A program made the position numbers and the translations under genes. DNA of 64,000 nucleotides from Kordiimonadales bacterium IMCC3096 (lineage in GTDB: Bacteria > Pseudomonadota > Alphaproteobacteria > Minwuiales > Minwuiaceae): positions 62,001 to 126,000 of the forward strand of contig CP018227.1 of the NCBI GenBank assembly GCA_016865035.1, read 5' to 3'. This document shows, in pieces, positions 20,727 to 32,156 of the stretch. A model generated the notes under the pieces. That model did not search any database and was not told the origin of the DNA. It worked only from the letters and a program-made list of their open reading frames with translations. Positions within the stretch are counted from its first letter, which is position 1. The number at the start of each line of letters is the position of its first letter.

Positions 20727-22082
20727 ATGAGTTTCACTGTTGCCATCATCGGCCGACCCAACGTCGGCAAGTCCACGCTGTTCAACCGTCTGGTGGGCAA
20801 GCGACTGGCGCTTGTCGATGACCTGCCGGGTGTCACCCGCGACCGCCGGGAGGGCCTGGGCCATATCGCCCGGCTGGAATTCCGGGTGATCGATACCGCC
20901 GGTCTGGAGGATGTCTTCGACAACAGTCTGGAGGCGCGCATGCGCCAGCAGACCGAGCTGGCCCTGGCGGAGGCGGATGTCGCGCTTTTTGTCATCGATG
21001 CGCGCGCCGGGGTGACCCCGGTGGACCAGCACTTCGGCGACTGGCTGCGCCGCAGCGAGGTGCCGGTCATCGTCGTCGCCAACAAGTGCGAGGGCCGCGC
21101 GGGCGAAGGCGGCATCTATGACGCCTTCGGCATGGGTCTGGGTGACCCGGTCGCCATCTCGGCCGAGCATGGCGAAGGCATGGTCGATCTGCATGACGCG
21201 CTGCTGCCCTTCGCCCCGGACGACGACGGGGAGACGGTCGAGGACGACCCTGACAACAAGCCGCTGATGCTGGCCATTGTCGGTCGCCCGAACGCGGGCA
21301 AGTCCACCCTGATCAACCGGATCATCGGCCAGGAACGGCTGCTCACGGGGCCGGAGGCCGGCATCACGCGCGATTCCATCTCCGTCGACTGGGAACATGA
21401 AGGGCGCACCATCCGTCTCTATGACACCGCCGGAATGCGCCGCCGCGCCCGGGTGAACCAGAAGCTGGAAAAGCTCGCGGTTGCCGATGGCCTGCGCGCG
21501 GTGCAGTTCGCGGAGATCGTTGTCCTGCTGATCGATGCCACACAGCCGCTGGAACGGCAGGATCTGGTGATCGCGCGGCAGACGGAGGAAGAGGGCCGCG
21601 GCCTCGTCATCGGCGTCAACAAGTGGGACCTGGTGGAAGACGGCGCCGAGACCATGACGGAGATCCGCTACAAGCTGGAAACCCAGCTTGCCCAGATCAA
21701 GGGCGTCCCGATCGTCACTTTCTCGGCCCTGAAGGGGCGCGGCGTGGACAAGCTGCTGCCGACAGTCCTGAAGGCGGAGAAGGCCTGGAACCTGCGTGTC
21801 AGCACGGCGCGTCTGAACCGCTGGATCGAGGAAATGACCCGGAAACATCCGCCGCCGCTGGTGGACGGACGCCGGTTCCGCATCCGCTACATGACCCAGG
21901 TCAAGGCGCGTCCGCCGACCTTCAGCCTGTTCACGTCCTCCGGTGGTCAGTTGCCCTCGGCCTACGAGCGCTATCTGGTCAATGGCCTGCGGGACACGTT
22001 CGGGCTGCACGGCGTGCCGATCCGGATTATGCTGCGCAAGTCGAAGAACCCCTTCGCCAGTGAGGACGAAAGACGCCGATGA
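20727..22082 (+). CDS. der: Ribosome-assembly GTPase Der (EngA)
   Basis: Der has two GTPase domains in tandem and is needed for maturation of the 50S ribosomal subunit. The 451-residue product shows both P-loops, GRPNVGKS (9-16) and GRPNAGKS (186-193), each with its switch (VIDTAGLED and LYDTAGMRR) and base-recognition motif (NKCE and NKWD). A KH-like C-terminal domain ends at residue 451. NKCE in place of NKxD in the first domain is common in this family. The stop overlaps the start of the P450 gene in an ATGA. Confidence 0.96.
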   Translation: MSFTVAIIGRPNVGKSTLFNRLVGKRLALVDDLPGVTRDRREGLGHIARLEFRVIDTAGLEDVFDNSLEARMRQQTELALAEADVALFVIDARAGVTPVDQHFGDWLRRSEVPVIVVANKCEGRAGEGGIYDAFGMGLGDPVAISAEHGEGMVDLHDALLPFAPDDDGETVEDDPDNKPLMLAIVGRPNAGKSTLINRIIGQERLLTGPEAGITRDSISVDWEHEGRTIRLYDTAGMRRRARVNQKLEKLAVADGLRAVQFAEIVVLLIDATQPLERQDLVIARQTEEEGRGLVIGVNKWDLVEDGAETMTEIRYKLETQLAQIKGVPIVTFSALKGRGVDKLLPTVLKAEKAWNLRVSTARLNRWIEEMTRKHPPPLVDGRRFRIRYMTQVKARPPTFSLFTSSGGQLPSAYERYLVNGLRDTFGLHGVPIRIMLRKSKNPFASEDERRR

Positions 22083-23473
22083 TCGATGCGGTGGACCTGA
22101 GCAACCGCCCGCGCCAGCGCCATCCGGGCAAGGACCGGCGGCTGAGCGTGGTGGAGACCATCCGGACCATCCGCGACAACATCATCGAGGTCTATCCGCC
22201 CTACGTCTTCGACAAGGACTGCACCTTCCGCCGCATCGGGTTCCAGCCGTTCATCCTGGTGAACCGCCCGGACTGGATCCACGAGATCCTGGTGGAGAAG
22301 CCCGACATCTACACCAAGGGTCGTCTGAACCGCCGTATCCTGGGCCCTGCCCTCGGCAACGGCCTGCTGACGTCGGAAGGCACCTTCTGGCGCAGGCAGC
22401 GCCGCATCGCCGCTCCGGCCTTCCATTACAGGCGTCTGCGGGTCCTGGCCGACATCATGGCCGAATGTACCGAGGGGCTGATCGAACGCTGGGACGCCAT
22501 TGCCGACACCGGTCGCCATGTGGACATCGCGCAGGAGATGATGCGCCTGACCATGGAGATCGTGGCGCGGACCCTGTTTTCCCGCGATCTCGGAACCTCC
22601 ATCGATGAACTGGGCAAGGCCGTCGCGACCCTGATCAGCAGCTTCGGTCGGACGCCGGTGATCGAGATGCTGGGCCTGCCCGAATGGTTGCCGCGCATCC
22701 GAGACCCGGAGGCAAAGCGGGCACTGGCCACCCTGGACCGCATGATCCTCGACCTGATCGAGACCCGCCGCAGCGCTGCGGAACCGGGGGAGGATCTGCT
22801 GCAGATGCTGCTGGACGCGCGCGACCCGGAAACCGGCGAGGGCATGACCGATGCGCAGTTGCGCGATGAGGTCGTCACCCTGTTCGCCGCCGGTCACGAG
22901 ACGACGGCGCAGGCCCTGACCTGGGTGTTCTACCTGCTGGACCAGCACCCGGACGAGGATGCCCTGCTGCACCGGGAAGTGACACGGATGCTCGGGGAAC
23001 GGCGTCCCGGATTCGATGACCTGCACCCGCTGCAACGTACCCGCATGATCTTTGACGAGACGTTGCGGCTCTATCCACCGGCCTTTTCAATCAGTCGCTT
23101 CGCGGAGAAAGCTGACAGATTGGATGGAGAAGGTGGCGACGGACTGCTGGTGCCGAGGGGGGCCTATGTGACGGTCAGCCCCTACATCACGCACCGCAAT
23201 CCCCGGCTCTGGCCGGACCCGGAAATCTTCAACCCGGACCGGTTCGCCGACGAGAAGGTTCATGCCCGCCACAAGCACGCCTATTTCCCGTTCGGCGGCG
23301 GCCCGCGCATCTGCATCGGGTCCGGGTTCGCGCAGACGGAGGGACGGCTGGCGCTGGCCATGATCGCCCGGCGCTATCGCCTGCGTCTGAAGCAGGGCCA
23401 CCCTGTCATGCCACAGGGCATCGTGACGTTGCGTCCGCGCTTCGGTATGAAGATGAGCATAGAACGACGATAA
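22079..23473 (+). CDS. Cytochrome P450
   Basis: A 464-residue soluble P450 monooxygenase. The oxygen-activating I-helix motif is AGHETT (271-276), the ExxR pair is ETLR (327-330) and the haem loop is FGGGPRICIG with the ligand Cys412. The sequence looks nearer to the CYP4/CYP102-like fatty-acid hydroxylase group (PFGGGPRICIG, long N-terminus) than to the camphor type, but the substrate is not known. No redox partner gene is adjacent. It overlaps der by four bases, so it is likely read from the der transcript, an odd place for a P450. The CoA-transferase gene follows after 40 bases. Confidence 0.93.
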   Translation: MIDAVDLSNRPRQRHPGKDRRLSVVETIRTIRDNIIEVYPPYVFDKDCTFRRIGFQPFILVNRPDWIHEILVEKPDIYTKGRLNRRILGPALGNGLLTSEGTFWRRQRRIAAPAFHYRRLRVLADIMAECTEGLIERWDAIADTGRHVDIAQEMMRLTMEIVARTLFSRDLGTSIDELGKAVATLISSFGRTPVIEMLGLPEWLPRIRDPEAKRALATLDRMILDLIETRRSAAEPGEDLLQMLLDARDPETGEGMTDAQLRDEVVTLFAAGHETTAQALTWVFYLLDQHPDEDALLHREVTRMLGERRPGFDDLHPLQRTRMIFDETLRLYPPAFSISRFAEKADRLDGEGGDGLLVPRGAYVTVSPYITHRNPRLWPDPEIFNPDRFADEKVHARHKHAYFPFGGGPRICIGSGFAQTEGRLALAMIARRYRLRLKQGHPVMPQGIVTLRPRFGMKMSIERR

Positions 23474-23513
23474 GTGCGCGCTGCGGCGCCGCGATCCTGG
23501 GGAGGAATGCAAG

Positions 23514-24701
23514 ATGAGTGGTGTGTTGAGCGGTTACCGGGTGCTGGATTTCGGGCGCTATATCGCCGGACCCTATTGCGCCACCCTGCTGGCCGAGTTC
23601 GGTGCCGACGTGATCCGTATCGAGAAGGTCGCGGGATCGGAGGATCGCTACACCACCCCCGTGAACGGTGACGGCGGCGTCGGCGCCCTGTTCATGCAGG
23701 TCAACCGCAACAAGCGCGGCATGACGCTGAATCCGATGAAGCCGGAAGGTCGGGAGATCGTGGCGAAGCTGGTGGAGACCGCCGATGTGGTGGTGGCCAA
23801 CCTGCCGCCGCAGGGCCTGCTGGCCATGGGTCTGGACCTGGAAAGCCTGCGCAAGATCAAGAAGGACATCATCCTGACCACCGTCTCCGCCTATGGCCAC
23901 GGCGGTCCCTACAGCGACCGGGTCGGCTTCGACGGCATCGGCCAAGTCATGTCGGGCAGCACCTACATGTCGGGGTCCGAGGATCAGCCGGTGAAGTTCG
24001 CTGCCCCCTTCGTCGATTTCACCACCGCCATGATGTCCGCCATCGGCACGCTGGTGGCCCTGATGCACCGCGACAAGACCGGTGAGGGCCAGATGGTGGA
24101 GGGGGCGCTGGTGCGTTCCGCGCTCACCATCGGCAATGCGGCGCTGATCGAACAGGCCCTGACCGGCATCAACCGCAAGCCCACCCTGAACCGAGGCCAG
24201 ACCGCAGGCCCGACCGACATCATCCAGACCGGCGATGGCTGGATCATCGTGCAGGTGGTGGGCCGGCCGCTGTTCGAACGCTGGGCCGACATGGTCGGTC
24301 GCCCGGAACTGAAGGATGACCCGCGCTTCACCAGCGACCTCGACCGCGGCGACAATGGCGAGATCCTCTCGGAAATCGCGCGTGAACATGCGAAGGGGCG
24401 CAAGACCGTGGATGTGCTGGCCGACTACGCCGCCGCCTCCGTTCCCGCCGGTCCGATGCATTCACCGCAGCAGGCGCTGGACGACCCGCATATCCAGGCC
24501 ATGGGCTTCCTGCAGGGCGTCGAGTACCCGGATGTTCCCGCCCCTGCCCCGATCGCCTCCGCGCCGATCAACCTGAGCAGCACGCCCGGCGGTATCCGCC
24601 ACCGTGCACCGATGCTGGGCGAGCATACCGATCAGATCCTGGCCGACCTGGGCTATGGCGCCGACGTGATCGCCGCCCTGCGCGAGAAACGGGTCGTCTG
24701 A
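23514..24701 (+). CDS. CaiB/BaiF-family CoA-transferase
   Basis: A class III CoA-transferase of 395 residues that moves CoA between carboxylic acids through an Asp-bound intermediate. It has the family start LSGYRVLDFGRYIAGPYCATLL, the segment FGADVIRIEK and Asp168 in APFVDFTTA at the catalytic place. GGGGAGGAA precedes the ATG. The acid substrate cannot be told from sequence. Position after the P450 suggests the pair may act on one compound (oxidation then CoA activation); this is an inference. The gene converges with fxsA, only four bases away. Confidence 0.92.
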   Translation: MSGVLSGYRVLDFGRYIAGPYCATLLAEFGADVIRIEKVAGSEDRYTTPVNGDGGVGALFMQVNRNKRGMTLNPMKPEGREIVAKLVETADVVVANLPPQGLLAMGLDLESLRKIKKDIILTTVSAYGHGGPYSDRVGFDGIGQVMSGSTYMSGSEDQPVKFAAPFVDFTTAMMSAIGTLVALMHRDKTGEGQMVEGALVRSALTIGNAALIEQALTGINRKPTLNRGQTAGPTDIIQTGDGWIIVQVVGRPLFERWADMVGRPELKDDPRFTSDLDRGDNGEILSEIAREHAKGRKTVDVLADYAAASVPAGPMHSPQQALDDPHIQAMGFLQGVEYPDVPAPAPIASAPINLSSTPGGIRHRAPMLGEHTDQILADLGYGADVIAALREKRVV

Positions 24702-24705
24702 CCGC

Positions 24706-25182
24706 CTAACGCAGTTTCTCGCGGTCGGGATCGACCGTTTCATATTCGCCGTCGATGACCGGCCCGCTGCCATCGGGACCGCGGCGGGGTCCGCTGTGCG
24801 GTCCCTGCGCCGCGCTGGCGCGGACATGCACCTTCACCCGACTGGCGATGGAGACCGCGATAAGTCGCCGCAGCGGGGGCAGGAACAGCAGGAATCCGAT
24901 GCTGTCAGTCACGAAACCCGGCGTCAGCAGCAGCAGTCCCGCAGCGAAGATGCACAGGCCTTCGAACATCTCGAAGAGTGGCGGCTGTCCCTCCTCCATG
25001 CGCGCGCGGATGCGCCCGACGACGCCATATCCTTGTGTACGCAGCAGGATTGTCCCCGCGACACCGGTGACGATGACGATAGCCAGCGTGGGCCAGAGGC
25101 CGATCACGTCACCGGCCTGGATGAAGACCGCGATCTCGATGATCGGCATTGCAATGAAGAGAAGCAGGAATAGCAGGGGCAT
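24706..25182 (-). CDS. fxsA: FxsA-family membrane protein
   Basis: A 158-residue inner-membrane protein. It begins MPLLFLLLFIAMPIIEIAVF, followed by the FxsA core (GLWPTLAIVIVTGVAGTILL, then RTQG) and a third hydrophobic part LCIFAAGLLLLTPGFVTDSI. The C-terminal tail is charged. In E. coli FxsA overexpression relieves phage T7 exclusion by the F plasmid; the normal role is unknown. The start at 25182 fits the hydrophobic N-terminus of the family, though the ribosome site is weak. It is divergent from the Tim44-like gene, an arrangement common in alphaproteobacteria. Confidence 0.88.
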   Translation of the reverse strand: MPLLFLLLFIAMPIIEIAVFIQAGDVIGLWPTLAIVIVTGVAGTILLRTQGYGVVGRIRARMEEGQPPLFEMFEGLCIFAAGLLLLTPGFVTDSIGFLLFLPPLRRLIAVSIASRVKVHVRASAAQGPHSGPRRGPDGSGPVIDGEYETVDPDREKLR

Positions 25183-25280
25183 GGCTTGTTCGCGCGGTGT
25201 CCGCGGCCTATGTTGGTTGCAGTGAAGCCCGCAAGCGAGGGCAATCATCAACCCCCGGCGCACGCGCCAGTGAGTGGAAT

Positions 25281-25997
25281 ATGGGTAACGGATTCCCGAT
25301 TTTCGAGATTGTAATCTTCGGCATGATCGCAGCATTCCTGATTCTGCGGCTGCGGAACACGCTTGGCCGCCGCACGGGGCATGAGCAGGAGCACCCGCGG
25401 ACGCGTCTCGGGGGCCTGGGCACGAAGCCGTCCGAGGCATCTGACGAGCGCGGTGACAACATCATCGATCTGCCGGCCCGCGACGGCGTAAGGCGCGACG
25501 ACAGGCCGGAGGATGACATGCCACCGGCCGAGGACGCCTCACCGCTGGAGCAGGGCCTGTACGCGATCCGCAAGGCGGACCCGAACTTCGACCGCCGCAC
25601 ATTCGCCGACGGCGCACGCGGCGCCTACGAGATGATCGTGAATGCCTTCGCCGCCGGGGACAGGGATACGCTGAGGCCGCTGCTGGCCGAGAAGGTCTTC
25701 GGCAGCTTCTCCGCAGCCATCGATGCGCGTGAGGCCGCGAAACAGACGCAGGAAACCACGCTGGTCGGCATCAAGCAGGCGGAGATCGTCGAGGCGGAAC
25801 TGACCGATAGCAAGGTCGCGGAAGTGACCGTGAAGTTCGTTTCGAGCATGATCTCGGCCACAAAGGATTCGGAAGGACGCGTCATCGCAGGTGATCCGAA
25901 TGACGTGAACACGCTGACCGAGATCTGGACCTTTGCCCGCGACACGCGTTCCCGTGACCCGAACTGGGAACTGATCGCGACCCGCTCCGCGCACTGA
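25281..25997 (+). CDS. Tim44-like domain protein (TimA)
   Basis: A 238-residue protein with an N-terminal membrane helix (FEIVIFGMIAAFLILRLRNTL), a charged low-complexity linker to about residue 85, and a C-terminal Tim44/MRPL45-type domain (FADGARGAYEMIVNAFAAGD through DPNWELIAT). It is the bacterial relative of mitochondrial Tim44 and is anchored in the inner membrane; its exact partner is not settled. The ATG at 25281 follows GTGGA and starts the membrane helix. It is divergent from fxsA and precedes the oxygenase gene by two bases. Confidence 0.88.
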   Translation: MGNGFPIFEIVIFGMIAAFLILRLRNTLGRRTGHEQEHPRTRLGGLGTKPSEASDERGDNIIDLPARDGVRRDDRPEDDMPPAEDASPLEQGLYAIRKADPNFDRRTFADGARGAYEMIVNAFAAGDRDTLRPLLAEKVFGSFSAAIDAREAAKQTQETTLVGIKQAEIVEAELTDSKVAEVTVKFVSSMISATKDSEGRVIAGDPNDVNTLTEIWTFARDTRSRDPNWELIATRSAH

Positions 25998-25999
25998 TC

Positions 26000-27148
26000 A
26001 TGGATACATTGGCGGCGCCTTCAGCGCGTCTTCATCCTGGTGATCCCGCCCCGGATTTCACCGCGCCGTCAACTGTGAACCCGGCATTTCATTTCAATAC
26101 CATCGGCGGACACCGCGCGGTGCTCGTGTTCCTGAACGGGCCGGAACGCATTCAGGCACGCAGGGTTCTGGCTGCCGCACTGCCGTCACTGCGCTCCAAG
26201 GGTGTGCATGTCTTCGGCGTGGTGCCGGGGCCTGATGCGTCGGTCGCGGCTGACCAGGATGGCACCAACCTGCCGATCACGCTGTTCCGCGATGTCGATG
26301 GTGCCATTGCCCGACGGTTCCGCATGGTGAAGCCCCGGCAGGGGGAAACGCCGCCGAGTCTGCTGAACGGTGCCTATGTCATTGACGAGAGTGTCCGCAT
26401 CGTCGGCTTCCAGCCCCTCGCCCCGCTGGACTCGCTGGCGCAGCGCCTGCACGACATGCTGGACCACATTCCGCCCCGTGAACCGCCGGTCACCATCGAG
26501 CGGCAGGCACCTGTGCTGGTGGTGCCCAATGTCATCCCGCCGGAATTCTGTCGGCGGCTGATCAATTACTTCGAGAGCACGGGCGGTTCCGAGAGCGGCT
26601 TCATGCGTGAGGTCGACGGACGCACCGTCGGCATCATGGACAGCCGTTTCAAGCGTCGACAGGACTGCCTGATCGAGGATCAGGCCCTGCGTGCGGAGGT
26701 GCGTGACGCGATCAACCGTCGCCTCTGCCCGCTGATCTTCCGGGCCTTCAACTTCAACGCCACCCGTCTGGAACGCTATCTGGTCGCCTGCTACGACGAG
26801 AAATCGGGCGGTTTCTTCCGCGCCCATCGCGACAACACGACCAAGGGCACGGCGCATCGTCGCTTCGCGGTCACGATCAATCTGAATGCGGAGGAATACG
26901 ACGGCGGCGACCTGCGGTTCCCGGAATATGTCGATCACCGCTATCGCGCGCCGACAGGCGGTGCGGTGGTGTTCGGCTGTGGTGTGCTGCATGAGGCCAT
27001 GCCGGTCACACGCGGCACCCGCTATGCCCTGCTGCCGTTCCTGTTCGATGAGGAGGCGGAGAAACTGCGGGCGGCCAACCTCTCCTTCCTGGACAGCGAC
27101 CGCATCATCAATCTGAACGATCCGGCACCGGTGCTGCCAGCCGGATGA
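26000..27148 (+). CDS. Fusion of redoxin-like domain and 2OG-Fe(II) oxygenase (prolyl 4-hydroxylase type)
   Basis: A 382-residue protein with two domains. Residues 11-155 look like an AhpC/TSA redoxin (LHPGDPAPDFTAPST at the start), but the catalytic PxxxTxxC is missing: the place reads LNGPERIQARRVL with no Cys. Residues 170-350 form a P4Hc-type dioxygenase with iron ligands His276, Asp278 and His331 and 2-oxoglutarate-binding Arg341, so this half looks active. The substrate is unknown. It sits between the Tim44-like gene (2-base gap) and mltA (ATGA overlap), so it is co-transcribed with envelope genes. The redoxin half may serve as a substrate or partner-binding module. Confidence 0.82.
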   Translation: MDTLAAPSARLHPGDPAPDFTAPSTVNPAFHFNTIGGHRAVLVFLNGPERIQARRVLAAALPSLRSKGVHVFGVVPGPDASVAADQDGTNLPITLFRDVDGAIARRFRMVKPRQGETPPSLLNGAYVIDESVRIVGFQPLAPLDSLAQRLHDMLDHIPPREPPVTIERQAPVLVVPNVIPPEFCRRLINYFESTGGSESGFMREVDGRTVGIMDSRFKRRQDCLIEDQALRAEVRDAINRRLCPLIFRAFNFNATRLERYLVACYDEKSGGFFRAHRDNTTKGTAHRRFAVTINLNAEEYDGGDLRFPEYVDHRYRAPTGGAVVFGCGVLHEAMPVTRGTRYALLPFLFDEEAEKLRAANLSFLDSDRIINLNDPAPVLPAG

Positions 27149-28311
27149 GAATCGAAGGCACACGGCTGGCGGCGGCAGCGCTGATCCTGATCGCGGTCGC
27201 GCTGTTCGTTGGCGTGGTGCTGATGGTGCCCCAGCCACCGAAGATTCCCGACGCGAGTCATGCGTTGACCCCGGCGACGTTCGACGACCTGCCCGGCTGG
27301 AAAGCCGATGACGTTTCGGCGATCGCGCCTTCCCTGCTGCGCCAGTGCGCCCGCTGGAAATGGCGCAGGGGCGAACTGGCTGACGCCATGCGGCAGGTCT
27401 GCACCGATCTGAAAGACAATACCGGGCTGGACCGGGGCTTCATCGAGGCCCGGTTCGATGTCTGGGCGCTGCAGGCAGAGGGGCCGGGTCTGCTGACCGG
27501 TTACTTCGAGCCTACCTACGAGGGGAGACGACAGGCAGAGGCCGGTTTCCAGGTTCCGCTGCTGCCACGTCCGGACGATCTGATCGATGTGGACCTGGCA
27601 TCCTTCCGTCCTGACCTGAAGGGGACCCGTATCGCCGGTCGGCTGGAGGGACAGAAGCTGGTGCCCTATGCCGACAGATCGGCAATCCGCAGCGGCGCGC
27701 TGGCCGACACGGTCGATCCGATCTTCTGGCTCGCCGACCCGGTCGACCTCTTCTTCCTGCAGATCCAGGGATCCGGCCGCATTGCCCTGCCCGGCGGTGA
27801 GATCGCCTATGTGGGCTACGCCGCACAGAACGGTCACCCCTATCGCGCCATCGGTCGTGACCTGATCGCCAGTGGTGCGATCGCGCGGGCGGACATGTCG
27901 ATGCAGGCGATCCGGCAGTGGCTGGCCGCCAATCCGGTGGAGGCGGAGGCGATCATGGACCTCAACCCGTCCTACGTCTTCTTTCAGGAGCGGAAGGGTG
28001 TCACCGGTGCAATAGGCGCCGCCGGAACCCAACTGACACCGGGCCGCTCGATAGCCGTGGACCGGCGTGTCTGGACGCTCGGGTTGCCGATGTTCGTGGC
28101 CACAGAGGCGCAGGGATCCGACCCGGAGATCCATCGCCTGACGCTGGCCGAGGATACCGGCGGCGCGATCCGGGGACCGCGCCGCGCCGACCTGTTCCTT
28201 GGGCCGGGCGATGAGGCAGCCCGCCTGGCGGGCAGCATGAACCGCCCGCTGGATCTCTGGCTGCTCTATCCGAAAGGGCTGTTGCCGGAGAATGCGGTCG
28301 TGGCCGAGTGA
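27145..28311 (+). CDS. mltA: Membrane-bound lytic transglycosylase MltA
   Basis: MltA cleaves peptidoglycan glycan strands to 1,6-anhydro-muropeptides. The 388-residue product has an N-terminal hydrophobic segment (about 8-29), no clear lipobox, then the MltA core with GLLTGYFEPTYEG, IQGSGRIALPGGE and AYVGYAAQNGHPY. The 3D domain follows, with LTLAEDTGGAIRGPRRADLF, where the catalytic Asp of the family lies. It is anchored by the helix and not by a lipid. The start overlaps the oxygenase stop. The stop abuts the stop of the convergent NTF2-like gene with no gap. Confidence 0.93.
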   Translation: MRIEGTRLAAAALILIAVALFVGVVLMVPQPPKIPDASHALTPATFDDLPGWKADDVSAIAPSLLRQCARWKWRRGELADAMRQVCTDLKDNTGLDRGFIEARFDVWALQAEGPGLLTGYFEPTYEGRRQAEAGFQVPLLPRPDDLIDVDLASFRPDLKGTRIAGRLEGQKLVPYADRSAIRSGALADTVDPIFWLADPVDLFFLQIQGSGRIALPGGEIAYVGYAAQNGHPYRAIGRDLIASGAIARADMSMQAIRQWLAANPVEAEAIMDLNPSYVFFQERKGVTGAIGAAGTQLTPGRSIAVDRRVWTLGLPMFVATEAQGSDPEIHRLTLAEDTGGAIRGPRRADLFLGPGDEAARLAGSMNRPLDLWLLYPKGLLPENAVVAE

Positions 28312-28740
28312 TCAGGGCGCGAAGTCGATGACCACTTCGCGACGGCTGAACCGCCAGCCAGCCTCCGTCCGACGGAAGGTGTCCCGGTAGGCACCGACCA
28401 TTTCCGGCAGGGACGCCGGTCGGGTCCGCGCGTTCTCCGGATCATCGTGGCGGTAGAGGATCAGATAGACCGTCCCCGTTGCATTGTCCGCGTCCTGCAC
28501 GTCGATCAGCGCGTTGGAGCAGACGTGACGGGATCGGCGATCCTGATTGTCCTGGCGCTTCTGGAAGCTGTCGCGGATCGCATCGATCCCTTCGAAGGCC
28601 CGCCTGCCCGCCGCCCACACGCCATCATCCGTGAACAGGTCCGCGATCCTGGCCGCCGTACCGTGATCGACGAGGTGACAGTATTCCACCTGAAGCCTTT
28701 CACAGGCCCGCTCGATCAGCATCCGTTGCACATCATCCAT
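28312..28740 (-). CDS. NTF2-like (SnoaL-type) small protein
   Basis: A 142-residue protein of the NTF2/SnoaL fold. Signs are the N-terminal helix pattern RLQVEYCHLVDHGTAARIADLF, then TDDGVWAAGRRAFEGIDAIRD, HVCSNALIDV and a C-terminal GWRFSRREVVIDF. Members of this fold include cyclases, dehydratases, isomerases and ring-hydroxylase small subunits, so function cannot be read directly. Its gene is the last of a minus-strand operon after an aminotransferase and a dehydrogenase, overlapping the SDR stop by one base. It probably acts on the same metabolite. Confidence 0.75.
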   Translation of the reverse strand: MDDVQRMLIERACERLQVEYCHLVDHGTAARIADLFTDDGVWAAGRRAFEGIDAIRDSFQKRQDNQDRRSRHVCSNALIDVQDADNATGTVYLILYRHDDPENARTRPASLPEMVGAYRDTFRRTEAGWRFSRREVVIDFAP

Positions 28741-29459
28741 CAGGCAATCTCCCGCTTGAAGGTCACATTGCCTTCGTCGAACATCAGATATTCCTGCCGG
28801 TTCCAGAAGACCCGGCCGGTCTGGTCTCCGGCACCGGTCTCGACCATCCAGCGCGCCGTCGGATAGACATCCGCCGGATCCTGCGGTGCCTTCGGGTTCA
28901 TGCCCGATCGGGTCGGACCCGGGATCAGACCATTGATCCGCACGCCGGTCCCCAGCATCTCCCGCGCCGCCGTCCGCATCAGGGTATAGAGCCCGGCCTT
29001 GGAGGCCCCATAGGCACCGAAGCCCTTGCCCCCCGCCTCACCGGCCCGCGACAGCGTGTTGATGATGTGCCCGCCGCCCTGCTGCTGCATCAGCGGCATG
29101 GCCACCTGCATGGCCAGGAAGGGACCGACGAGATTCACCCGGATCAGCCGTTCGAAGTCCGCCGGGGCATGATCGACCAGCGGCGCGCGAACGCCGATGC
29201 CGGCATTGTTGAACAGCACATCCAGTCGCCCGAAGTGGCTCACGGCGAGCCCGATCATGTTGGCAACGGCTTCCGCGTCCGAAACATCGGCGACATGGGC
29301 CAGCAGCCTGTCGCCCTTCAGCGTCGCCAGCCCGGCCTCATCCACGTCAACCGCCATCACGCTGGCGCCATCGGCCAGAAAGCCCTCCACCAGCGCCTTG
29401 CCGATGCCGCTGGCTGCGCCCGTGATCAGGATGACCTGATCCGCGACACCGGTGCTCAT
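28740..29459 (-). CDS. Short-chain dehydrogenase/reductase
   Basis: A 239-residue classical SDR. The NAD(P)-binding TGAASGIG is at residues 13-20, NNAG near 84-87, and the catalytic set is Ser137, Tyr150 and Lys154 (YGASK). Asp38 after the second strand (VMAVDVDEAG) suggests NAD rather than NADP. The gene is coupled to the aminotransferase by an ATGA overlap and to the NTF2-like gene by one base. Substrate unknown; an alcohol or ketone related to the amine handled by the neighbouring aminotransferase is a reasonable guess. Confidence 0.9.
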   Translation of the reverse strand: MSTGVADQVILITGAASGIGKALVEGFLADGASVMAVDVDEAGLATLKGDRLLAHVADVSDAEAVANMIGLAVSHFGRLDVLFNNAGIGVRAPLVDHAPADFERLIRVNLVGPFLAMQVAMPLMQQQGGGHIINTLSRAGEAGGKGFGAYGASKAGLYTLMRTAAREMLGTGVRINGLIPGPTRSGMNPKAPQDPADVYPTARWMVETGAGDQTGRVFWNRQEYLMFDEGNVTFKREIA

Positions 29460-30826
29460 GCCATGGCCTCCCGCGCCCTGGGGGCGAAGTCGTCCAGCGC
29501 CTGCGTCAGCAGTTCCATGATCATGTCGATCTCTCCCTCCGTCACGTTCAGCGGCGGCGTCACCAGGAAATGGTCACCCCGCAGTCCGCCGAGCATACGC
29601 CGGGAATAGATGATCAGCCCCCGGTCGTAGCATGCCTGGGCAATGGCACTGCCGGCACCGAGTTCCGGCGCGAAGGGAATGCGCCTGTTCCTGTCCGCCA
29701 TGACGTCGAAGCCGAGCATCAGCCCCTTGCCCCGCACTTCGCCGATGAAGGGGAACCGTTCCACCAGCCCCTCCAGCCGGGCCTTCAGAACCGTCCCCAT
29801 GGCCGCCGCGTTGGCGATCAGGTCGTTGTCCATCAGCACGTCCAGCACAGCCAGACCGGCCGCGCAGGCCAGCGGGCCGGCTGAATAGGTGTGGCCATGG
29901 GCAAAGCCGCCCGAATCCTCCACCAGGGTCACCAGGTCACCGCGCGCCATGACGGCCCCCAGCGGCACGTAACCGGCGGCCAGCCCCTTTGCCATGGCGA
30001 CAATGTCCGGGTTGGCGGGCCAGTGCTCCGCCGCGAGATACTTGCCGGTGCGCCCGGACCCGCACATGACCTCATCATAGATCAGCAGCAGGCCATGCCG
30101 GTCGCAGATGTCGCGGATGCGCTGGTAATAGACATCCGGCGGCGTCAGGGCGCCCGTGGCCGCGCCACCAACCGGTTCGACGATGAACGCCAGCACCGTC
30201 GATGGCCCCTGATTGATGATCTCCGTTTCCAGTTCGTCGGCGAAGGCCAGCGCGGCCTCATCCTCCGAGACACCCTCCGCCCGCTCGACCACGAAGGGCG
30301 CGCGGATCTTCGGCTGGTTCGGCATCATCGGCGCGAAGGGAGCGAACATGTCCGGGTCACCGGTCAGCGACAGCGCCCCGAGGGTGGAGCCGTGATAGGA
30401 CGGAATGCGGGAAATGATCTTGTGCCGCGTCCCCTCCCCGCGTGCCACGGCGACCTGCCGGGCCAGCTTGATCGCACCTTCCACGGCCTCCGAGCCGCCG
30501 GAGCAGAAGAAGGCCCGCGTCAGGCCTTTCGGCGCGCCCAGCGTGGCCAGCCGGTCCGCCAGCCGCTCCGCCGGGCCATTCTTGAAATGCGAGCGAAAGG
30601 CGTAGCAGATGTCGTCCATCTGCGCCTTCAGGGCATCGATCACATACTGGTTGCCGTGGCCGACATTGGTGGTCTGCGGGCCGCAACTGGCATCAACGTA
30701 GCGACGCCCCTCGTCGTCCCAGATGAAGATGCCTTCGCCGCGTCGGGCAATGGGGCGATCCTCTGTCGGCCAGAAGAACATGGAGGACGGCTCGTTCCGC
30801 CCCTGTCGCGAATTCATCTCGTTCAT
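29456..30826 (-). CDS. Class III PLP-dependent aminotransferase
   Basis: A 456-residue aminotransferase of the omega-amino-acid/beta-alanine-pyruvate group. I see FFCSGGSEAVEGAIKLAR (phosphate-binding part), SYHGSTLGALSLTG, LLLIYDEVMCGSGRTG with cofactor Asp251, and MAKGLAAGYVPLGA with the PLP Lys280. The ATG at 30826 is chosen because AGGAG lies 8 bases before it; a longer frame to 30973 is not supported. It is the first gene of an operon with an SDR and an NTF2-like protein. The amine donor is not known. It is divergent from the DUF898 gene. Confidence 0.9.
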   Translation of the reverse strand: MNEMNSRQGRNEPSSMFFWPTEDRPIARRGEGIFIWDDEGRRYVDASCGPQTTNVGHGNQYVIDALKAQMDDICYAFRSHFKNGPAERLADRLATLGAPKGLTRAFFCSGGSEAVEGAIKLARQVAVARGEGTRHKIISRIPSYHGSTLGALSLTGDPDMFAPFAPMMPNQPKIRAPFVVERAEGVSEDEAALAFADELETEIINQGPSTVLAFIVEPVGGAATGALTPPDVYYQRIRDICDRHGLLLIYDEVMCGSGRTGKYLAAEHWPANPDIVAMAKGLAAGYVPLGAVMARGDLVTLVEDSGGFAHGHTYSAGPLACAAGLAVLDVLMDNDLIANAAAMGTVLKARLEGLVERFPFIGEVRGKGLMLGFDVMADRNRRIPFAPELGAGSAIAQACYDRGLIIYSRRMLGGLRGDHFLVTPPLNVTEGEIDMIMELLTQALDDFAPRAREAMA

Positions 30827-30971
30827 TGCCAGCTCCTGCAAGTGTCGTGCGCAGAACTTACGCCCGGCCAGGGCATGGCGCCAGACGTCGGACAAGACAA
30901 TTGCCAGTTCCGCCCCCCACACATAACGTGTCCCAGGCAAGGAAATACAACTACAGCATGGCAGGGACGAC

Positions 30972-32156
30972 ATGAACGAGGATGACAGGCGGGGCTGGCC
31001 CGAACCGGTGCCACCGCAGGAGCCATCGGCACCTCAGGTCGCCCCGGTTGAAGCGGACGGGGGCGGGACAGGCAACAGCCTGGAACTGAAATTCTCCGCG
31101 ACCCGGACGCAGTTCCGGAAACTGGTCCTGCGCCAGATGCTGATGATGGTCGCCACCTTCGGCGTATACTGGTTCTGGGCGCGGACCAATGTGCGACGCT
31201 TCATCTGGGGGCACCTCTCCCAGGGCGGCAGCCGCCTGGAATACAGCGGCCGGGGCATGGAGCTGTTCCTGGGATTCCTGATCGTCGGCGTGGCACTGGC
31301 GCTGGCGTTCTGGATCATCCAGTTCGCGATCCTCGCGATCGCGGGCCCGCAGTTCGCGCCCTTTGCATGGCTGCTGACGCTTTATCCACTGCTGGGCATC
31401 CTGGGTGTCATCGCGATCTACCGGCGCCATCGCTACATGATCCGCCGTACAAGCTGGCGCGGTATCCATTGCAGCCTCAGCGGTTCCACTGGGGGCTATC
31501 TCGGCCGGATCATCGTGCCGCTGCTGGCGACCGTGGTCACACTCGGCCTCGCCCTTCCCTGGGTGACAATCACGATCCAGCGCTATCTGGTGAGCAACAT
31601 GTCGCTGGGCAGTGAACGGTTCACCTACCACGGCTGGGTGGGCGACATCTTCGGTCGCTGGGTACTCTGCTGGCTGCTGATGCCGCTGACGGGCGGACTC
31701 GCACTGGCATGGTGGCGCGGGTTCACGACCCAGTACATGCTGCGCCAGACCCGGCTCGGCTCTCTCGGCTTCTCCTCAGATATCCGCCCGATCCGGTTCG
31801 TCAGCATCTACTTCTTCGGCGGGCTCTTCGCCGGACTGATCGTCTACGGCATTTTCTTCGTGATCTTCAGCATCATGTTCGCCGGTGGCTCCTTGCCAAT
31901 GCCAGGACAGGAGGGGGCGTTCGACGTCGGACAGCTCGTGCTGTTTGCCATCCCGTACATGCTTTTCATGGTCATCATCGGTCCGATCTCCTATTCGGCG
32001 TACCTCTATTTCGTCGAATACCCGACCGTCGAGTATGTCTTCGAGACCACGACCATCGTCGGTTCGATGGATATCGAGAATATCGTCCAGGTCGCAGATG
32101 CGGACAGGGGTGCGGGCAGCGGACTGGATGCGGTACTGGGAATGGATGGTATCTGA
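30972..32156 (+). CDS. DUF898 (YjgN-type) multi-pass membrane protein
   Basis: A 394-residue inner-membrane protein with a soluble Pro-rich start (1-35), then repeated hydrophobic segments. The family signature is visible twice: FWARTNVRRFIWGHLSQGG with the nearby YSGRG, and a later RYLVSNMSLGSERFTYHG. I count about seven hydrophobic stretches. The function of the family is unknown. The M48 protease gene follows after 24 bases; YjgN-like and M48 genes are often paired, so they may work together in envelope quality control. AGGGACGAC precedes the ATG. Confidence 0.85.
   Translation: MNEDDRRGWPEPVPPQEPSAPQVAPVEADGGGTGNSLELKFSATRTQFRKLVLRQMLMMVATFGVYWFWARTNVRRFIWGHLSQGGSRLEYSGRGMELFLGFLIVGVALALAFWIIQFAILAIAGPQFAPFAWLLTLYPLLGILGVIAIYRRHRYMIRRTSWRGIHCSLSGSTGGYLGRIIVPLLATVVTLGLALPWVTITIQRYLVSNMSLGSERFTYHGWVGDIFGRWVLCWLLMPLTGGLALAWWRGFTTQYMLRQTRLGSLGFSSDIRPIRFVSIYFFGGLFAGLIVYGIFFVIFSIMFAGGSLPMPGQEGAFDVGQLVLFAIPYMLFMVIIGPISYSAYLYFVEYPTVEYVFETTTIVGSMDIENIVQVADADRGAGSGLDAVLGMDGI

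Follow-up and report, generated by a model that had tools for sequence, protein, structure and literature searches.

A peroxiredoxin-fold domain lacking the peroxidatic cysteine is fused to a 2-oxoglutarate/Fe(II) oxygenase domain in an alphaproteobacterial protein family

The window, meaning the whole 64-kb stretch of DNA that was analysed, encodes a 382-amino acid fusion of a peroxiredoxin-fold domain without the peroxidatic cysteine and a 2OG-Fe(II) oxygenase domain (26000..27148, + strand). This description is based on the open reading frame, Pfam, and an alignment of 92 full-length family members. Pfam assigns residues 13-131 to AhpC-TSA (E 5.6e-10) and residues 262-345 (26783..27034, +) to 2OG-FeII_Oxy_3 (E 5.1e-12), both above the curated cut-offs, and residues 1-183 contain no cysteine, in agreement with the preliminary description of a cysteine-less redoxin domain fused to an oxygenase. 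The gene product is presumably a cytoplasmic Fe(II)/2-oxoglutarate-dependent oxygenase, most likely of the PKHD or prolyl-lysyl hydroxylase type. The N-terminal domain appears to have lost its peroxidase chemistry and to have been kept for its shape, and it would dock a substrate or partner or hold the enzyme together. Our guess is that the substrate is a protein. A cytoplasmic hydroxylase of this type, with an inert N-terminal domain for docking or assembly, is the best explanation, and we give it an even chance of being correct. As judged from the sequences, the protein has two domains, the peroxidatic motif has been lost in the members examined, the iron and 2-oxoglutarate residues are intact, both halves are under purifying selection, and the location of the gene is not conserved.

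The oxygenase half retains the residues expected to bind iron and 2-oxoglutarate. His276 and Asp278, the expected first two iron ligands, lie in the sequence His276-Arg277-Asp278 (26825..26833, +) and are each found in all 92 members. The expected third iron ligand, His331 (26990..26992, +), is found in 91 of the 92, and Arg341 (27020..27022, +), expected to bind 2-oxoglutarate, in 92. These four residues had been picked out earlier in the window protein, and all four are indeed present. Arg277 and Glu309 are also invariant among the 92 members, as is Cys184 at the start of the oxygenase half (26549..26551, +). With the HxD...H triad and the 2-oxoglutarate arginine inside a 2OG-FeII_Oxy domain, the protein falls by sequence within the 2OG-Fe(II) oxygenase superfamily.

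The closest relatives of the oxygenase half are hydroxylases. The nearest solved sequences are PiuC (9ghl) and procollagen lysyl hydroxylases, and the nearest NCBIfam models are those of PKHD-type dioxygenases, although the scores are far under their cut-offs. The best model gives 40.5 bits against a cut-off of 143, which places the protein outside the PKHD-type (PiuC/YbiX) equivalog. Foldseek matches of the oxygenase half, obtained with a model of moderate confidence, include human PHD2 (8rut; E 2.8e-7, TM to target 0.58) and the Pseudomonas putida P4H-EF-Tu complex (4iw3; E 5.2e-7, TM 0.65). The AF2 model is weak around the active site, with a mean pLDDT of 52 for residues 271-280. The preliminary description proposed a prolyl-type hydroxylase acting on envelope or translation proteins. 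Kinship to hydroxylases is supported (PKHD and lysyl hydroxylases by sequence, PHD2 and the Pseudomonas prolyl hydroxylase PPHD among the fold matches), while the tie to the envelope is not.

The main rival to a protein hydroxylase is a small-molecule oxygenase, with a role like that of PiuC and CciO in iron uptake. As proposed for PiuC, YbiX and CciO, the substrate would be an iron chelator or other metabolite, and the N-terminal domain would be a structural cap. Among solved structures, those of PiuC match the sequence of the oxygenase half best (E 2.9e-7; by profile E 4.9e-8). CciO, the Caulobacter homologue of PiuC, contributes to iron uptake, perhaps by acting on a siderophore, according to excerpts of PMC12004947. 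Since the closest solved relative is PiuC, the substrate of the fusion protein may be small. On the other side, the score is far below the PKHD cut-offs, and the genome carries a separate PF13640 gene (G000:C1:502549) that could be its PKHD enzyme. The same excerpts state that the genes of CciO homologues commonly adjoin a TonB-dependent receptor gene (PMC12004947), whereas the direct neighbours of the fusion gene are timA and mltA, and no TonB receptor is found among the annotated window neighbours (22079 to 32153). On balance a small-molecule substrate is possible but rather unlikely. A screen of neighbouring genes for a TonB/iron link gave 6 of 80 family loci and 0 of 71 controls, a count that is unusable and a p value that is worthless because the four queries were taken from the family loci themselves and only one was a TonB receptor (the others were a PAS histidine kinase, a PD-(D/E)XK nuclease, and a YdbH-like protein). 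That single receptor matched only its own place, showing that the screen was insensitive.

The fusion is widespread in Alphaproteobacteria, and the pairing of its domains has been kept across many of them. With a threshold of E 1e-30, a profile built from 18 members finds the family in at least 88 of 387 genomes of the class, or roughly a quarter of the sampled Alphaproteobacteria. In the phylum it is found in at least 22 of 397 genomes, all of them either the window's own genome or Alphaproteobacteria. These frequencies are lower bounds because the genome search can miss genes; the PF13640 search skipped the window's own fusion gene although Pfam finds the domain. Both domains are spanned in 115 of the 124 matches listed in the class-wide profile search (counted by hand as matches whose model coordinates run from 60 or earlier to 340 or later), so the pairing is not a chance one, and some of the other nine places are at contig ends, such as those in G173 and G656, which start at base 1. 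The named relatives are from Minwuia, Sphingomonadaceae, Caulobacter, and Qipengyuania, and there are also unclassified alphaproteobacterial MAGs. Rhizobium leguminosarum WSM1325 has one member too (RLEG_RS32355). One genome, G104, has five copies at the E 1e-30 threshold. For the alignment, incomplete sequences were removed at one stage (10 of 69 non-redundant members) and 4 more segments were skipped later, leaving the 92. Viral contigs contain no relative, phages gave a single weak match confined to the oxygenase part, and eight plasmid records matched, two of them with the full fusion. Broken copies also occur: an intact member lies beside a copy split by a stop codon at L109:5888-8061, and one family gene is broken into two frames at G513:C3:440390-441465 (L063, L191).

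Both halves of the protein are maintained by selection. Across six Minwuia pairs, dN/dS ranges from 0.08 to 0.15 in residues 1-165 and from 0.03 to 0.09 in the remainder (Nei-Gojobori; synonymous sites are close to saturation in the three pairs that include L033), showing that the dead domain is under purifying selection. Outside Minwuia the N-terminal domain is 21-29% identical to that of the window protein, versus 50-60% for the oxygenase half (12 relatives each). This lower conservation is as compatible with a loose scaffold as with a site for docking.

The genes around family members do not point to a substrate in the loci examined. Neighbourhood genes were called with a home-made ORF scorer rather than a trained gene finder, and among 87 family loci and 71 controls no gene cluster recurred in most loci. 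Clusters absent from the controls, noticed after the fact, encode a glutathione S-transferase (6 loci), an Ala_racemase_N protein (5 loci), and a further protein (5 loci). The glutathione S-transferase-like gene is in stretches L079, L153, L168, L172, L174, and L178 and in no control; three of these six loci are from one genus, so the association may reflect shared descent.

An association with type I secretion appeared in the first 40 loci and was gone in 40 further ones. In this reading the fusion protein would be a modifier of proteins secreted by type I systems, such as RTX proteins. In the first sample, RTX, HlyD or close ABC matches lay in the stretches around 8 of 40 loci and in 1 of 40 controls (one-sided p 0.014). 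In one locus (L098) an ABC-HlyD-TolC set runs into the fusion gene. In another (L100:7897-17001) the family member is about 3 kb away from the gene of an animal haem peroxidase that carries RTX repeats and has 1647 aa inside the stretch. The idea was born from this same sample, however, and in the second sample none of 40 loci and 1 of 31 controls had such a match, for a pooled one-sided p of 0.07. The first sample holds the near-duplicates L070 and L071, L072 and L073 share one setting, and its only positive control (L130) is from the same genome as a positive locus (L092). The second sample consists mostly of more divergent members, and its controls number 31 because 9 of the 40 intended stretches did not exist. 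As an account of the family this reading is improbable, and the link may hold in one sub-branch.

The placement of the gene, with an envelope gene on either side, appears to be a local coincidence and no guide to its function. Upstream is a TimA/Tim44-like protein gene (25284..25997, +; Pfam Tim44 E 2.5e-49; NCBIfam NF033779) and downstream is an MltA-like lytic transglycosylase gene (27145..28311, +; Pfam MltA E 5.4e-58, 3D E 3.3e-20), and both are outside the proposed function. The timA reading frame stops at 25997, 2 bases before the ATG of the fusion gene, and the stop codon of the fusion gene (27146-27148) overlaps the mltA start at 27145 by 4 bases. The spacing is thus as the preliminary description reported, and the fusion gene of Minwuia may ride on the timA-mltA transcript. 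Further out, from 22079 to 32153, Pfam identifies P450, CoA-transferase, FxsA, SnoaL-like, SDR, aminotransferase, and DUF898 genes. At 22079-24698 the cytochrome P450 gene has a family III CoA-transferase gene close behind it, and fxsA and timA are downstream of both.

The same order, timA - fusion - mltA, is found in five of the seven Minwuia genomes, namely G000, G165, G653, and G067 and, split over two contigs, G651. On the other hand, timA and mltA are direct neighbours without the fusion gene in G650 and G652 of the same genus and in G649 of a related genus in the same family, with 40, 40, and 29 bases between the matched timA and mltA stretches. Another genome of the family, G245, has no fusion family member and no MltA match. 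The fusion copy of G650 and G652 is elsewhere in the genome, adjoining DUF2126 and transglutaminase genes. At L070:7988-16064 and L071:694-8770, in Minwuia genomes other than that of the window, this kind of different fusion copy is followed by DUF2126/transglutaminase, CP-ATP-grasp/Alpha-E, and another transglutaminase gene (Pfam on L070). In a quick tree, which has only SH-aLRT support and many open forks, a single branch (support 100) unites the four complete proteins linked to timA, and the G650/G652 pair falls in a different part of the tree. The bare pair in some genomes and the separate position in the tree suggest that the gene was inserted there in one lineage or lost in others. Because the bare pair is also found in the related genus, insertion is preferred, and the Minwuia gene probably entered a timA-mltA pair that was already there.

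Relatives in other genomes are scattered. They adjoin amidohydrolase, DnaJ, sulfotransferase, MAPEG, GTP cyclohydrolase II, leucyl-tRNA synthetase, and many other genes. In one sub-branch (L171:4456-8182 and L175:4764-8496) leuS follows the fusion gene on the same strand at a distance of about 90-100 bases. By hydropathy alone, the window protein has no apparent signal peptide or membrane segment. Among the 92 family members, the N-terminus is strongly hydrophobic in one, and a hydrophobic stretch of 19 residues occurs at any position in four. An envelope-linked hydroxylase acting with TimA and MltA would explain the tight spacing and the order shared within the genus, but the bare timA-mltA pairs, the location of relatives beside unrelated genes, and the lack of a signal peptide by hydropathy make it very improbable. 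The functional tie to envelope genes drawn in the preliminary description is therefore abandoned, all the more since that description had itself named random placement in relatives as evidence against it.

The N-terminal domain has the peroxiredoxin fold without the peroxiredoxin active site. A profile of 14 N-terminal domains searched against the PDB ranks peroxiredoxins first (2ywn, E 2.8e-12). An AF2 model built on 10 sequences, one of them partial, has a mean pLDDT of 69, and in VIA-align its residues 8-167 (26021..26500, +) match 9a4d_B (Z 19.1, rmsd 2.7, 149 aligned) and 5enu_B (Z 18.7). Structure prediction, which the preliminary description had called for, thus recovers the fold for this half; the PDB matches in VIA-align span mainly residues 8-167 and say little about the oxygenase half. 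An AF2 model from the single sequence was dropped (pLDDT 31.6). In the profile alignment with 2ywn, Ala53 (26156..26158, +) is at the position of the peroxidatic cysteine, a column that varies within the family. The active-site threonine and proline positions correspond to Arg50 and Asn46, read across by hand to the window protein from the family profile. The N-terminal domain of the window protein being entirely cysteine-free, no other cysteine there replaces the peroxidatic one, which had been a stated concern. The PxxxT/SxxC motif is found in none of the 92 full-length members, suggesting that the dead domain is an old feature of the family.

Two of the 92 members, L101 and L159, have a cysteine at the old peroxidatic column, both without a threonine or serine three residues before it, and many others have a cysteine somewhere in the domain. 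At L159:7129-8208 the cysteine is kept and aspartate replaces the threonine, and the sister L158 has alanine at the cysteine position. The L159 stretch around this cysteine resembles what we take to be the ancestral motif of PrxQ proteins, and it is consistent with descent of the family from a working peroxiredoxin. A redox-sensing role that persists in the domain, through a different cysteine or through binding of peroxide or a thiol partner, would accord with the retained fold and these scattered cysteines, but it is scarcely credible given that the window protein has no cysteine in residues 1-183 and that the full motif is missing from all 92 members.

Overall, a cytoplasmic hydroxylase with an inert N-terminal domain remains the preferred reading, and the docking role of that domain is plausible. 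To our knowledge, few bacterial protein hydroxylases have known substrates. With its near-invariant active site and its conserved but dead redox domain, the family lends itself well to the search for a new hydroxylation, and it could show how a peroxiredoxin becomes a binding module. The window also warns against assigning function from an operon position that arose locally. No study of a peroxiredoxin-oxygenase fusion was found among the matches listed in the open-access literature, which is weak evidence of absence.

The two halves of the protein resemble different known systems. Residues 8-167 share the fold of BCP/PrxQ and AhpE peroxiredoxins (9a4d, 5enu, 2ywn), including a G-D-x-A-P-x-F-like start and an aligned conserved Asp98, but the window protein has lost the peroxidatic cysteine and the Pro/Thr motif and is fused to an oxygenase. 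The oxygenase half shares its iron and 2-oxoglutarate residues with its best sequence match, the PKHD-type proteins PiuC, YbiX, and CciO. These are stand-alone proteins of about 225 aa, while the window protein falls far under their family cut-offs and has no TonB receptor gene beside it. PPHD (4iw3), which hydroxylates EF-Tu according to excerpts of a review (PMC4543633), and human PHD2 (8rut) appear among the Foldseek matches with the predicted fold of the oxygenase half, but they are only 15-17% identical and have no peroxiredoxin domain. The RefSeq proteins WP_102115373.1 (49% identity) and WP_012760540.1 (40%) are of the same two-domain family; they have another genomic setting and are named '2OG-Fe(II) oxygenase' after the oxygenase half only.

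Collagen prolyl 4-hydroxylase with protein disulfide isomerase (PDI) also joins a thioredoxin-fold partner to a P4H-type catalytic domain, as described in excerpts of PMC9676403. By the same excerpts, the PDI cysteines form inter-subunit disulfides (PMC9676403), which the cysteine-free domain of the window protein cannot do, so the precedent is partial. It is doubtful, though conceivable, that this is an old alphaproteobacterial family of enzymes that hydroxylate proteins and use the inactivated peroxiredoxin to recruit them, so that a single bacterial chain would parallel the pairing of prolyl hydroxylase with PDI. In the collagen enzyme PDI is a separate subunit with active cysteines, while the window protein combines its cysteine-free domain and its oxygenase in one chain.
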